NCBI RefSeq assembly: GCF_017565645.3
Contig: NZ_CP086139.1
Coordinates: 62,001-126,000 of the forward strand
Direction: 5' to 3'
DNA: 64,000 nt
Source of the DNA: Bradyrhizobium barranii subsp. barranii
GTDB lineage: Bacteria > Pseudomonadota > Alphaproteobacteria > Rhizobiales > Xanthobacteraceae
Positions 9,393 through 17,257 of this stretch are shown here, piece after piece. The position numbers were made by a program, and so were the translations under genes. The notes beneath the pieces were generated by a model that had not been told where the DNA came from, ran no database searches, and was given only the letters and a program-made list of their open reading frames with translations. Each line of letters opens with the position of its first letter. Within the stretch, counting starts at the first letter, position 1.

Positions 9393-9707
9393 ATGAAATT
9401 CCGTCCGCTTCACGACCGCGTCGTGGTCAAGCGTATCGACGCCGAAGAGAAGACCGCTGGCGGCATCATCATTCCGGATACGGCCAAGGAAAAGCCCTCC
9501 CAGGGCGAAGTGATCGCCGTCGGCCCCGGCGGCCGCGACGAGAGCGGCAAACTGATCCCGATCGACATCCAGGTCGGCGACCGCGTGCTGTTCGGCAAGT
9601 GGTCGGGCACCGAGGTCAAGATCGACGGCCAGGACCTGCTGATCATGAAGGAAAGCGACATCATGGGCGTGCTCGAAGCTCCCGCTTCGAAGAAGAAGGC
9701 CGCCTAA
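9393..9707 (+). CDS. groES: Co-chaperonin GroES
   Basis: The 104-residue GroES forms the heptameric lid of the chaperonin. It shows the family start [13 protein letters not shown], the mobile loop near [12 protein letters not shown] (residues 18-29), and a C-terminal lysine-rich tail typical of rhizobia. AGGAG precedes the ATG by about six bases. It is followed after 100 bases by groEL. Control by RpoH and HrcA/CIRCE is inferred from the two upstream sites. Confidence 0.98.
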
Positions 9708-9777
9708 GTCAACGCTCGCACCGCTCACCCTGAGGAGCGCCGGCCGGGCGCATCGTCAAGGGTGAGACAAGCCGTGA

Positions 9778-11448
<1,671 letters not shown>

Positions 11449-11784: not shown

Positions 11785-12891
11785 TTAGGCCCGGTTCATG
11801 CGCAGCGTAGGTATCCTGAACGACTCGCCGGCGAGCGCGAAAGACATATTCCGCTTCGCAACGCCCGAATGCTTGGCCAAGACATCCTTAATGACAGATA
11901 CGTCATCAGTGAAAGTCAATTTATCGAGAAATGGCCGCAATGCAGCTTCATCGGGACTCAATCGGCTGCAGATCCCGAACTTGAGGATCTCGGGGACGGT
12001 TTCGTCGAGTTTCAAGCCATAGCTTGTAACCTTGCCGCGCTCGTAGACTGCGGAGCGCAGCCAGTAGCCGCCCCTGTCGAAGAATATCATTGGAGTGAAA
12101 TTTTCAGCGTCCTTGGCGTAGTAGTTCCTTTCCACGTCCTGGAAAATCTCGCGCAGCGTTCCGCCGCCCCCTCGGCCGTAGATGATCCCAGCCCGCGAAT
12201 TGTTGACGAGCGCCTCCTCGCGAAGACTGTTCTGATAATATTTGGCGTAGTGCGTCGCGAACGGCATCGTGGGCTCTGCACCGTACAGCCAGGTCGGAAT
12301 GGCAAGGCTGAGAGGCAGCGTCGACGGCGCGGCCGAACGCACGTCGAGTGCAGCCGCGAGCCAGTCGCGGGCGGCCATCACGTCCTTCCGCTTCGATTTC
12401 TTAAGGCTGCCGTCGTTCTCGAAGAGATCGTCCAGATCGCCATAATCCGGGGTCGCCGCCAGATTCGCCAGGGCCCTTTCGAGATCGTCCATTCCGTTTC
12501 TGCTGAAGGCCACTCCCACGTGCGCAGCCTCCATCACGCCGGGACCGCCTCCGGTCACGATGAGGTACCCGTCCTGCGCCACGCTCCAGGCGAGCTTGGC
12601 GATGTCGGCGAACGCCGGCGAATTGCGCTTGGCGGCGTGGCCGCCCATGAACCCCACGAGTGGCCGCCCAACGTCCTTCAGAAACCTCTTGAGGGCATCG
12701 GCGATCGTCGCGTCGTGCCGCGCCTGCGACAGTCGCGTTTCCAGAGCGGACGGCACGGGTCCACCATCGGACACGAACTGCCGGAACACCTCGAAGTCGC
12801 GGGTGAGCGTGAAGCCCAATTCGTCGAACGGATTGAATCCATCGAGGAGGTCGGAGGCCGCGTACAACCTCTGAAGCATCGTCGGCAGCAT
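11785..12891 (-). CDS. LOG-like Rossmann-fold nucleotide-binding protein (368 aa)
   Basis: The protein contains a Rossmann/LOG-type core: VGFMGGHAA near residue 93, LIVTGGGPGVMEAAHVG near residue 125, and a second glycine-rich site GIIYGRGGGGTLREIFQDVE near residue 240, which parallels the PGGxGTxxE motif of LOG/PpnN phosphoribohydrolases but with R-G-G-G-G. An extra N-terminal region (about 85 residues) is present. LOG enzymes cleave nucleoside monophosphates; the SLOG superfamily also binds nucleotide signals in conflict systems. It is third in an apparent operon: 20 bases downstream of the S1/P1 nuclease gene and reading the same way. Substrate and activity are not deducible. Confidence 0.65.
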   Translation of the reverse strand: MLPTMLQRLYAASDLLDGFNPFDELGFTLTRDFEVFRQFVSDGGPVPSALETRLSQARHDATIADALKRFLKDVGRPLVGFMGGHAAKRNSPAFADIAKLAWSVAQDGYLIVTGGGPGVMEAAHVGVAFSRNGMDDLERALANLAATPDYGDLDDLFENDGSLKKSKRKDVMAARDWLAAALDVRSAAPSTLPLSLAIPTWLYGAEPTMPFATHYAKYYQNSLREEALVNNSRAGIIYGRGGGGTLREIFQDVERNYYAKDAENFTPMIFFDRGGYWLRSAVYERGKVTSYGLKLDETVPEILKFGICSRLSPDEAALRPFLDKLTFTDDVSVIKDVLAKHSGVAKRNMSFALAGESFRIPTLRMNRA

Positions 12892-12911
12892 CCAAGTTCT
12901 CCCTTCGAGGT

Positions 12912-13850
12912 CTAGTGAAGCGCCGTGTCCAGCACTCTCGCGAGCCTTGCCGCGGCAAGGGCTGCGCGAGTGCGGGCGACGTTGCGCGCGTTCGTCTCAT
13001 AGTCGCGCGTAAGTTGGACCGCGGCCGGTCCGGGCGCGACCGGCTGAGCGTATGCGAAGCTCTTTGCGGCCTCGAAACTCTCCTGCGCCCATCGATCGGG
13101 ATCGAGCACCTTCTCCGCGTCGGGGTCGACCGCGACGGATCCGAGACCACCCCGATCGTCGGCGTCGAAAATGGCCCCGAAAACGGACGAATATCCGCCG
13201 AAGAGACGATCCCAATAGGCGTGCAGCGCGATCGTCTCGCCGGTGGCCGGAACGACCATCTCGGCGTTGCCGCCGCGGTCGCCGTGCGGAAGCTCGGCGG
13301 TATAGCGGGCAATCGCGTGAAGTGGTTGATGGAGATCCCCGACGAGGTGCAGCAACCAGACGAGGTCGTAGGACCGGAGTTGATCGGAGGCGCCGGAGGC
13401 CGCGGGCAGTGTAGCGATCATGATCTTCGCCATCTTCGCGGCATCGACCGGATCCGGTGCGGGCAGGCTCGTGCCGTCCGGCGAGAACAATATGTCCTTA
13501 TAGTGCCAATAGCTGTGCTTGAGCTTGTCGTAAGCTACGTTCTGGCCCGCAGTCGCGTCGCTGACGTGATCCTCCCGGTAGTCGCTCTTCGTCTTGATGT
13601 CGTCGGCCCAGGTCGCCGCGTGGACGAAGGCATAGGTCCTTCGGGAATCGTCGTCCTGCGCACCACACGTCCAGACCTGATAGTCGGGATTGAGCCTAAG
13701 CAGGCCGTCGATCTTGTCCTTGATCGCGGGATCCAGCCGCTTGTAGGCCAGATAGGCGATCTGCATATGGCCTTCGTCCCACCACGCGGACGCCGGGCCG
13801 GGCACGAGCGCGACGAGGCAGGACAACGCCATCAAAGCGGCTTTCTTCAT
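12912..13850 (-). CDS. Secreted S1/P1-family nuclease
   Basis: The 312-residue precursor has a signal peptide (residues 1-22, ending GPASA). The mature protein begins with Trp23 and reads WWDEGH, matching the conserved N-terminal Trp and W-x4-H zinc site of S1/P1 nucleases. Further zinc ligands are visible in HLVGDLHQPLH and in the preceding Asp/His-rich segments, and GDRGGN follows. The family is trinuclear-zinc, single-strand-preferring DNA/RNA nuclease and 3'-nucleotidase, so it should act in the periplasm or outside the cell. It lies 55 bases downstream of the protease-nuclease gene and 20 bases upstream of the LOG-like gene on the same strand. Confidence 0.88.
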   Translation of the reverse strand: MKKAALMALSCLVALVPGPASAWWDEGHMQIAYLAYKRLDPAIKDKIDGLLRLNPDYQVWTCGAQDDDSRRTYAFVHAATWADDIKTKSDYREDHVSDATAGQNVAYDKLKHSYWHYKDILFSPDGTSLPAPDPVDAAKMAKIMIATLPAASGASDQLRSYDLVWLLHLVGDLHQPLHAIARYTAELPHGDRGGNAEMVVPATGETIALHAYWDRLFGGYSSVFGAIFDADDRGGLGSVAVDPDAEKVLDPDRWAQESFEAAKSFAYAQPVAPGPAAVQLTRDYETNARNVARTRAALAAARLARVLDTALH

Positions 13851-13905
13851 GCACGTTTCTCCGCGATCGTGCAGTGGATTAGATGTCGGCCCCTGATCGC
13901 GATCG

Positions 13906-16005
13906 TCACAGGTTCCGAGGCAGGAGATCGGACTCGGATTTCACAGGAACCGCCGGCCGCGCCTCGCCTACGACAGGCTGATCTTTGGTCTCGAAAGTAT
14001 CGGCCGACCTGACCTGATCGCCGAAGTCGAGGCCCGTGCGGCGTTCGATCTCGGTGATGGCGACGCGCCATTGCGAGACGTCGACGAAGGCCGGCGGCTT
14101 CGGCGGGATTCCGCCTTTGCGCTGTTCGGACAGCAGTTGACGCTGATCGACGACGAGGCCCACGGATTTCACGCCGTTCTTGCCCTTCCAGGCGATCACT
14201 TTGAAGAACGACGACGGAATCTGGATATCGTCCGCCCAAAGATCGACCTTGTCGTCGAAGATCGGTCCCTGGAAGACGCAGATGCGGTTGGCGGTCTCTT
14301 CAGCGATGGCCCCGTTTTCGAGGACATATTGCTCGGCGCCCTGCCAGAATTTCGTGCTCTCGTTGAAGCGGAAGTGCTGCGGGGTGCAGTTCGTGAAATG
14401 ATAGGTGTCCGCATTCGCCCGTTCAGCTGCCTCCTTGCTTCCCCAGTCCGGATCCATACGGCGGGTCAGATGGCCCCTGTCGAAGAGATTGGACCAGCCC
14501 GAATAGAAGGTCTGGTCAATGAAGAAGCTCGCGCTGATACGGGGATCGCCGTACCAGGTCTCTCCTTCGGCGCCGTCGGTGACCTCCCCCGTGGAGCGGT
14601 CGACGTTCAGGAAGCTCTTGCCATCGATGTTGGTCGCCGTGAACAGAGCCATCTTCTTGGCCTTGTTCATCTTGATGCTGAAGTGCTCGTATTTCAGCTC
14701 GCCGGCCTCGGCGTTCTGTTCGCCGGCCCGCAAGGGAGCCACCTGCTTGGCCAACTTGCCGATTGGCGTCGGCAGCGGAAACGTCACGCCGTGCACGAAT
14801 CGCGGGTCGTAGCCGTCGCGATTCGAATAGTCCTGGTCGATCGATAGTTTTTCCGCCGCACGTGTGAGCGTCTTCTGGGGCGCGGGTGCGGGCGCGACGG
14901 GAGCGGCGGCCACGTAGCTTCCGCCTACCCGAACGCTCACTTCGATCGGAATCGTCACCTTGATCTCGTTTCCGCCGGCTTCACTGGCCATGACGCCCTC
15001 CTCCCCGATCACCAGACTCTCTTGTGCATCCGCGGAGGGATGCGGCGGCGAGAGTCGCTTGCCGCCCGTTTGAACGAGAGCCGTCTTCGACAGTTCGAGC
15101 GCGGCCCGCAACAGGTCGCGATGATCCCCGTCGAGAGTCGCGAGCCTGTCCGAAAGATGCCGGTAGATGGCGCTGATCCGCACGCCTTCGTTGACGTTGG
15201 TAGGAATGGCATTGCCGCTTTCGTCCTTACGTTCGAGGAACGGCTCCCCGAAGTGATGAAGCGCCACGAGCTCCCACGCATCGTTGAAGACTGCCGCTCC
15301 CGACGAACCGTGGTCGGTATCGGTCTCGTACAGAAGCGTGCGCTCCGTCCGATACTGCAGGATATTGTTCCGGATCGCGATCATCTTCGGCAGGCCGTTC
15401 GGGTGCTGCACGATATTCATGTTCATGCCGATCACGTGCTTGTCGGGCCGATCGGACAGGACGCACAATCCAAAATCCCGCGGGTCGCTATCGCCGGCAA
15501 CCTTCTGCCCGAGAGCCACGATCGCGTAGTCCAATTCCTCCTGCTGTGAGAACAGGGCGAAACGGTCGGGCGCCAAACGGAAGACGGTGGTGGGCCGCAT
15601 CGAGCCGTCCTCGCCCATTTCCCGATCGAACGTGATCTGGGCCGAAAGCGCAGCGGCTTCGTCCTGGATCACGTGCTGGTTGGTCATGAAGAGCGTGGGG
15701 CTGATCAGAAAGCCGGAGCCGGCCGTCCACTTGCCTCCAGCCGTCGCTTCAACGAACGCGATCGCCCGCCGTGCCGTCGCGCCACCCGGCAGGAACCACG
15801 ACGCCTGCATGTCGTCAGGACCCTGCACGGCCTCGGCGCCGCGCGGCATGGTCTGTCGCGCAGTCCGCAAGCTGAACATCGCCATGCGCGTCCGGTCCGG
15901 CTCGGCCTGACGCCACTGCTTGGCTTCCACGAGCTTGCGCACGCGATCGCGATCCTCGCGCGTCTGCTCGACCACGTTTCGAAACCGCGTCTGATCGATT
16001 TCCAT
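13906..16005 (-). CDS. Trypsin-like serine protease fused to NUC1-type DNA/RNA endonuclease
   Basis: The 699-residue protein has two enzymes. Residues about 75-290 are a V8/trypsin-like protease: His111 in MTNQHVI, Asp159 in LDYAIVAL, Ser235 in DHGSSGAAV. A valine/proline/alanine-rich linker (about 345-380) leads to a DNA/RNA non-specific endonuclease (about 395-640) with the catalytic DRGH (509-512) and the metal-binding asparagine region FTNCTPQ. No signal peptide is seen, so it is probably cytosolic. Trypsin-NUC1 fusions are known among predicted bacterial conflict effectors in which proteolysis releases or activates the nuclease; that mode is inference here. It is the first large gene of the three-gene operon. 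Confidence 0.85.
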   Translation of the reverse strand: MEIDQTRFRNVVEQTREDRDRVRKLVEAKQWRQAEPDRTRMAMFSLRTARQTMPRGAEAVQGPDDMQASWFLPGGATARRAIAFVEATAGGKWTAGSGFLISPTLFMTNQHVIQDEAAALSAQITFDREMGEDGSMRPTTVFRLAPDRFALFSQQEELDYAIVALGQKVAGDSDPRDFGLCVLSDRPDKHVIGMNMNIVQHPNGLPKMIAIRNNILQYRTERTLLYETDTDHGSSGAAVFNDAWELVALHHFGEPFLERKDESGNAIPTNVNEGVRISAIYRHLSDRLATLDGDHRDLLRAALELSKTALVQTGGKRLSPPHPSADAQESLVIGEEGVMASEAGGNEIKVTIPIEVSVRVGGSYVAAAPVAPAPAPQKTLTRAAEKLSIDQDYSNRDGYDPRFVHGVTFPLPTPIGKLAKQVAPLRAGEQNAEAGELKYEHFSIKMNKAKKMALFTATNIDGKSFLNVDRSTGEVTDGAEGETWYGDPRISASFFIDQTFYSGWSNLFDRGHLTRRMDPDWGSKEAAERANADTYHFTNCTPQHFRFNESTKFWQGAEQYVLENGAIAEETANRICVFQGPIFDDKVDLWADDIQIPSSFFKVIAWKGKNGVKSVGLVVDQRQLLSEQRKGGIPPKPPAFVDVSQWRVAITEIERRTGLDFGDQVRSADTFETKDQPVVGEARPAVPVKSESDLLPRNL

Positions 16006-16565: not shown

Positions 16566-16912
16566 TCGGAACTCGGTAAGACCATCACGGGGCAAGTCTC
16601 AAGGTGGGCGGAAACAGGATCGGGTCTTGACGGAAGAATCAAAAGGAACGTTGAAGGACTTTCGCCAAGGCGAAGATCAGTCCTTGTGGCATGTCCAACA
16701 AGCGCCACGATCAACGCCCCCCGAGGAGCTTGTGGCACGCCCCTGATAGACGGAGGACAGAGAGGTGGTCGGACTCTTACCGTTTTCCAAATGGGGATAC
16801 GTAGGTCTCCGCCCAATTTCATCACGGCCTCGCTCGCACCATCTACGAGCCGCCCAATTTTTGCTCGTTCAAGCTGGCACAATTGCTCAAAGATTTGCGA
16901 GGAGAAGAGCAG
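16566..16912. other. Stretch without a convincing gene
   Basis: Several overlapping short frames on both strands look equally weak. One plus-strand frame from about 16571 to 16750 has coding-like codon use but no start or family, and may be debris of the trypco2-like gene. Confidence 0.35.
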
Positions 16913-17257
16913 GTGAGCGACAACACAGATCTCGAAAGCAGGGTCGTCGAAGCGATACGATACTATCGCGAGGCACTCGCAAGGTTGGAAACTCTCGAAC
17001 GAGAGGAAGCTTGCACGCATCGAGCGCTGACGAGCACGCTGGTGGATTTAAGTCGTGCCATGCGAGATGAAGCGTCGCCGCATCTCAAGGACAGCCTACT
17101 CCAGATTAGCTCGGCTGCGATTTCGCAGGTGGACAAAACGTCGGCCGCCATGGTCGAGGCGACTGCAAAATTGGAGTCAGCTCGCCTAACGTTGGCTGCA
17201 TTGGAAGGTCAATTGGGATATATTCCAAGAGTCCCGTCGGGGTCGTATCACGAGTAG
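16913..17257 (+). CDS. Small coiled-coil hypothetical protein (114 aa)
   Basis: The GTG at 16913 is preceded by GAGGAGAAG, deciding the start. The protein is almost entirely helical and acidic, with heptad-like EAIRYYREALARLETLERE and a second helix from about residue 75 (VDKTSAAMVEATAKLESA). It ends in a short proline-containing tail. No family is recognised. It could be an accessory protein of the neighbouring nuclease operon, but there is no direct evidence. Confidence 0.5.
   Translation: MSDNTDLESRVVEAIRYYREALARLETLEREEACTHRALTSTLVDLSRAMRDEASPHLKDSLLQISSAAISQVDKTSAAMVEATAKLESARLTLAALEGQLGYIPRVPSGSYHE

Follow-up and report, generated by a model that had tools for sequence, protein, structure and literature searches.

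What joins a trypsin-NUC1 fusion, an S1/P1 nuclease and a LOG-like protein in one row of genes? The question is raised by a window of 64,000 nucleotides from Bradyrhizobium barranii subsp. barranii (positions 62001-126000 of contig NZ_CP086139.1; the source genome comprises 11.4 Mb in 4 contigs), in which the three genes are consecutive on the minus strand, separated by gaps of 55 and 20 nucleotides in the list of open reading frames (ORFs, table 1). A sequence-only reading of the window had described this row, assigned the three families and proposed that they belong together, with the LOG-like protein as a nucleotide sensor or salvage enzyme. The row was recovered among the ORFs, and the family assignments, including the catalytic triad and the DRGH motif of the fusion, were borne out by Pfam searches and alignment. 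The answer that emerged from other genomes concerns a different unit: what stays constant in the arrangement is the LOG-like gene, and nucleases of the S1/P1, PLD, EEP and NUC1 families are its interchangeable partners. This wider LOG-nuclease linkage is the real finding of the analysis.

Within the window's genus, 23 of 265 genomes carry the LOG-like protein, fragments included; in a sample of the family the count is 3 of 248, one of which is the window's own genome. Nineteen stretches of 5.5 to 18 kb around LOG were examined, using nuclease queries that came from elsewhere than these loci. All 19 contained a nuclease match, compared with 1 of 40 control stretches chosen by hand, and hence non-randomly, from the same genomes; the sole control match (L169) lies over an S1/P1 gene that the genome-wide S1/P1 search had also counted. 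Eighteen genomes selected for carrying LOG were then searched for the four Pfam families with a distance criterion of 6 kb (working numbers of genomes and contigs are given in brackets). A nuclease of one of the four unrelated folds lies within this distance at every one of the 21 counted LOG places (21/21), which include near-copies (G716/G824 and G655/G656), two contig ends of one genome (G753), broken LOGs (G677 and G731) and a short LOG piece (G731:C102). Among merged genes, those near LOG amount to 14 of 36 for S1/P1 (0.06 expected), 8 of 43 for PLD (0.07 expected), 6 of 68 for EEP (0.12 expected) and 6 of 11 for NUC1 (0.02 expected), giving binomial P values from 3e-9 to 7e-30 under the assumption that the places are independent. 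The spacing is tight, with 12 of the 14 nearby S1/P1 matches at most 270 nucleotides from LOG.

Eight weak LOG places in eight genomes were left out of the 21. Among these, a nuclease adjoins two places with S1/P1 of identical sequence (G709 and G631) and one with EEP (G627), where later reading did not recover the LOG piece itself. LOG fragments on plasmids of B. quebecense, B. japonicum S06B and Lysinibacillus have none of the four families nearby by annotation; at a distance of 3-6 kb from its fragment, the S06B plasmid encodes a serine protease and an HNH endonuclease. At L144 5983-8215, a carbon-nitrogen hydrolase protein follows an N-terminal piece of LOG (55% identical), with genes for a serine protease and an HNH endonuclease close by. 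The remaining matches in two LOG searches were short, were to the first LOG motif and lay in many cases in ordinary LOG proteins, 30 loci from these searches having both canonical motifs.

The set of partners varies from place to place. LOG is accompanied by S1/P1 and PLD in four cases (G655, G656, G674:C95 and G169), by S1/P1 in four (G829, G095, G677 and G731:C137, the last also holding a fusion remnant of 66 amino acids), by EEP in two (G850 and G719), by a divergently read PLD-EEP pair in five (G679, G735, G706, G731:C102 and the 62B plasmid) and by the fusion alone in one (G674:C292). Outside the phylum, LOG is followed by EEP on plasmids of Streptomyces sp. NBC_01296 and Paenibacillus polymyxa M1. 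A tree of 20 LOG proteins requires eight changes of partner set, three long branches being unsure. A non-GDSL lipase and a DUF3616 protein that seems to carry a signal peptide also recur beside LOG. The nucleases associate among themselves as well, since S1/P1-PLD and PLD-EEP pairs are present in places that lack LOG (G679:C11, G655:C1, G735:C1 and G824:C27).

The exact order of the trio is more than a chance arrangement, since it was seen again, though in close relatives only, namely in G813 (which pairs with L003, CCGUVB4N), in G753 (which pairs with L002, Leo170, and has its LOG cut by the end of a contig of 5551 bases) and on plasmid pBjCNPSo31b. Two near-copies, G716 and G824, have the order S1/P1, LOG, DUF3616 protein and trypsin-NUC1, with the fusion of G824 split into two frames; these are distant homologues, the identities between the window and L115 (G716) being 65% for LOG, 36% for the fusion and 24% for S1/P1. 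Other genomes thus keep the three families together, in the same or in a rearranged order, so the outcome that the sequence-only reading had named as its refutation, a trio kept by no other genome, did not occur. The trio is nevertheless not the unit: LOG stays and the nucleases change.

The LOG-like protein reaches the Pfam gathering score of SLOG cluster4 (PF18306, 28.1 versus 26.3 bits) and is called LOG-like, and not LOG, because it misses the curated TIGR00730 cut-off (16.7 versus 96.35 bits). Its predicted model, compared by Foldseek against pdb_via, has the Rossmann-like fold of LOG and PpnN. It keeps the catalytic Arg (Arg224, by hhalign against canonical LOGs) and Glu (Glu248), whose roles are described in PMC4979012, and both residues are invariant in 16 aligned LOG-like members from three phyla. 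The family differs from the type-II LOG cytokinin-riboside monophosphate phosphoribohydrolases by an insertion between the motifs, by an invariant PTWxYGxEP block and by the Pro of PGGxGTxxE, which is mostly R or Q in the relatives and is kept in L125 and L142. Compared with PpnN (pyrimidine/purine 5'-monophosphate nucleosidase), the window protein is shorter (368 versus about 450 amino acids), is absent from the matches to the PpnN model and gives no evidence of alarmone-binding domains; L127 alone among the relatives matched that model, at 25 bits against a cut-off of 450. The predicted fold and the Arg/Glu pair, as in nucleosidases of nucleoside 5'-monophosphates (5'-NMPs), suggest that the protein is more likely an enzyme than a sensor. 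An extended subfamily (L222 8587-7382 and L142 6812-7852) carries an extra N-terminal stretch of the FLGC type, shows no nuclease match nearby and forms a natural comparison group.

The S1/P1 protein matches PF02265 over its full length (S1-P1_nuclease, E 5.3e-37), its aligned His/Asp columns, which we take to be the metal ligands, are conserved, and its N-terminus resembles a Sec signal peptide by eye. In the full-length match and these columns it is like the S1/P1 nucleases of the 8qjl series; it is ordinary by sequence, and its gene context alone is unusual. S1/P1 exceeded the cut-off in 10 of 41 relatives, so the family is not common. The fusion combines Trypsin_2 (E 2.9e-20) and Endonuclease_NS (E 1.3e-39), and all 43 aligned fusions share its His111, Asp159, Ser235, Asp509, Gly511 and His512, with Arg510 present in at least 90% of them. 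The nearest solved structures to the protease part by sequence are V8-type glutamyl endopeptidases, and no signal peptide is visible by eye.

The fusion had been regarded as a predicted conflict module, in agreement with the published "System 3" (Kaur et al. 2020, PMC7159879), a predicted conflict system that couples a NucA-like endonuclease to trypsin-like peptidases by fusion or within an operon. The window fusion has both domains in one protein; the published system is likewise mostly alphaproteobacterial, and its nuclease is proposed to be deployed by proteolysis. Its named partners are different (EAD1, STAND, lysozyme, papain and subtilisin): EAD1, STAND and further peptidase partners gave no Pfam match in the scanned window proteins, fusion included, EAD profiles not having been searched separately, and a term search of the main text of PMC7159879 found no mention of S1-P1, EEP or exonuclease. 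The parts are of known kinds, and the LOG-nuclease combination was not found in the literature searched. A phage or virus origin was considered and rejected: the fusion and LOG had no relatives in pattern scans of viral contigs, and tblastn found no LOG in phage records. Among the other fusions, one of 1207 amino acids (P0018) has about 500 extra N-terminal residues; PF27295 is listed among its precomputed domains, and the extra stretch gave no other convincing match. On a Rhizobium johnstonii plasmid (L187 1173-14371), DUF3616, a weak GDSL-lipase match and trypsin-NUC1 are followed by SIR2 and ATP-binding proteins; on the Rhizobium leguminosarum Vaf10 plasmid (L080 4260-7553 and 16314-18512), a His-Xaa-Ser (hxs) system and a CHAT protein flank PLD, S1/P1 and trypsin-NUC1. 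One Rhizobium plasmid has PLD, S1/P1 and trypsin-NUC1, and further on CHAT and EEP, with no LOG match.

The trio may be one form of a mobile modular cassette in which a constant nucleosidase of the LOG/PpnN type is joined by one or two nucleases of unrelated folds, the nucleases cutting nucleic acid and LOG stripping the bases; we give this reading a probability of about 0.4. Nucleases of the S1/P1, NUC1, DNase-I-like (EEP) and bacterial PLD types leave products with a 5'-phosphate, the form used by LOG/PpnN enzymes, and this shared output would be the simplest reason for one nucleosidase beside four unrelated nuclease folds. The nucleases would reduce nucleic acid to 5'-phosphorylated products, S1/P1 acting outside the inner membrane and NUC1 inside, once controlled or released by the V8-like protease to which it is fused. 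In a coupled step the LOG-like enzyme would hydrolyse 5'-mononucleotides to free base and ribose-5-phosphate, and the removal of the base would keep the nucleotides from simple re-use. The likeliest use would be conflict, in which the nucleic acid destroyed would belong to an invader or to the infected cell; in favour of this use are the trypsin-NucA core, a distribution that is patchy and decaying, and CHAT and SIR2 genes nearby.

Several observations weigh against such a cassette. The P values overstate the independence of the 21 places, owing to the near-copies, the contig ends of a shared genome and the broken LOGs among them. No nuclease was found near the other five of the eight weak places, which are LOG fragments (G831, G734, G823, G674:C75 and G648), and no nuclease match near two extended relatives (G283, of 401 amino acids, and Arthrobacter L142). 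On pBjCNPSo31b the fusion and LOG are intact (99.9% and 100% identical to the window) and S1/P1 is interrupted (L049 22156-23094, annotated as two pieces, a single nonsense change being the sole difference from window 12912-13850), so not all three genes are always kept. In the DNA covered, up to 8 kb on each side of the fusion, 41 of 43 fusion loci have no S1/P1, LOG, PLD or EEP match, the two that hold LOG and S1/P1 partners being L002 and L003; ten of the 43 loci span less than 16 kb, and in these a partner may in some cases have been cut off. The trio as a conserved unit was for this reason rejected as a general rule. The compartments do not match either, since by eye S1/P1 and some EEPs look exported and LOG, PLD, NUC1 and other EEPs do not. 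The exact PGGxGTxxE motif is absent, the window's RGGGGTLRE keeping GGxGTxxE with Arg in place of Pro. PADLOC gave no convincing match to a known anti-phage system, only RT-Protease XI at 22 bits to the protease part and Cas8f at 15 bits.

The exported partners fit a rather unlikely alternative, nucleic-acid scavenging, in which the nucleases and secreted neighbours of DUF3616/phytase-like, GDSL and phospholipase type would break down nucleic acids and lipids of the environment to yield phosphate, bases and ribose, and LOG would finish 5'-NMP breakdown inside the cell. The signal peptides seen by eye on S1/P1 and some EEPs, the recurrence of DUF3616 and non-GDSL lipase neighbours and a match of the Streptomyces EEP to the ExeM/NucH extracellular nuclease model, far under its cut-off (35.6 versus 300 bits), all point this way, but NUC1, PLD and the L125/L143 EEPs have no signal peptide by eye and a protease-nuclease fusion would be odd in such a role. 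Pho-box-like matches of at least 10/14 occur in 12 of 27 cassette upstreams compared with 33 of 330 gene-upstream controls (Mann-Whitney P 0.001, uncorrected for base composition or kinship), a weak excess that was also obtained against mononucleotide shuffles. However, none of the 27 reaches 12/14 and two reach 11/14, whereas 8 of 25 pstS-type upstreams score 12-14 and one scores 11, in a positive control that is partial (of the 25 loci, nine others have wrongly called starts, and the seven that belong to a second pstS type gave scores of 8-10).

LOG might instead be an immunity or signal-handling protein, a SLOG ligand sensor that controls the adjacent nucleases instead of sharing a pathway with them as an enzyme. 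In conflict systems, SLOG domains are predicted to act as nucleotide-signal proteins (PMC7159879), and one LOG type beside several unrelated nucleases looks regulator-like, but a pure sensor would have no need of an invariant catalytic Arg and Glu, and we consider this improbable. Cytokinin release is more doubtful still. The nucleases would degrade transfer RNA (tRNA) containing isopentenyl- or zeatin-type adenosine and LOG would free the cytokinin base, which would give soil symbionts a trait directed at plants. Several named examples stem from legume nodules, and PMC8234997 describes both the release of cytokinins from 5'-monophosphates by LOG enzymes and tRNA degradation as a cytokinin source, naming Bradyrhizobium; against this, the TIGR00730 score places the family far from characterised LOGs, and exported or DNase-type partners are not obvious for tRNA turnover. 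Least probable is that the families share mobile islands without joint work: the loci are mobile and partly decayed, but the tight spacing of S1/P1 and LOG, the re-assembly of the cassette with distant homologues and the recurrence of the linkage in three phyla argue otherwise.

In the window the cassette lies in DNA that matches a conjugative plasmid of B. japonicum, pBjCNPSo31b, 35.9 kb being 99.3% identical to it. A groES-groEL pair (9393-11448) lies just past the cassette end and converges on it, as it does on pBjCNPSo31b, and a small protein near the cassette (16883-17257, TraM-like by Pfam) resembles by eye one at L126 9273-9620. A promoter and terminator scan gave one promoter-like match (1.3 expected) and three terminator-like matches (5.3 expected), neither number exceeding expectation.

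Table 1. Features of the three-gene row, in window coordinates.
Feature	Position	Strand	Basis
Trypsin-NUC1 fusion, 699 amino acids, first gene of the unit	13906..16005	-	ORF, Pfam, alignment
Trypsin_2 domain of the fusion, residues 96-249, His111/Asp159/Ser235	15259..15720	-	Pfam, alignment
Endonuclease_NS (NUC1/NucA) domain of the fusion, residues 436-666, DRGH at 509-512	14008..14700	-	Pfam, alignment
S1/P1 nuclease, 312 amino acids, apparently exported	12912..13850	-	ORF, Pfam, alignment
Putative Sec signal peptide (residues 1-22) of the S1/P1 nuclease, with cleavage ahead of Trp23	13785..13850	-	By eye
LOG-like/SLOG cluster4 protein, 368 amino acids, predicted 5'-NMP N-glycosidase	11785..12891	-	ORF, Pfam, model, neighbourhoods
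LOG motif GGGPG, residues 114-118	12538..12552	-	Sequence, alignment
LOG motif GGGGTLRE, residues 241-248, including catalytic-type Glu248	12148..12171	-	Alignment
Arg224 codon of the LOG-like gene, aligned with the Arg of the canonical LOG RK motif	12220..12222	-	hhalign

The linkage yields a testable rule, by which all 21 counted members of the LOG-like subfamily have a neighbouring nuclease, as does LOG on three further plasmids. It is tentatively suggested that these loci belong to an undescribed cross-phylum class of cassettes that cut and strip, in which a dedicated LOG-type nucleosidase travels with four interchangeable nuclease folds and would make the destruction of nucleic acid irreversible. 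If the chemistry holds, the cassette would be a conflict or nutrient module acting on nucleotides after the cut, which would assign a function to one subfamily of SLOG cluster4 and place the predicted trypsin-NucA system in a new context.

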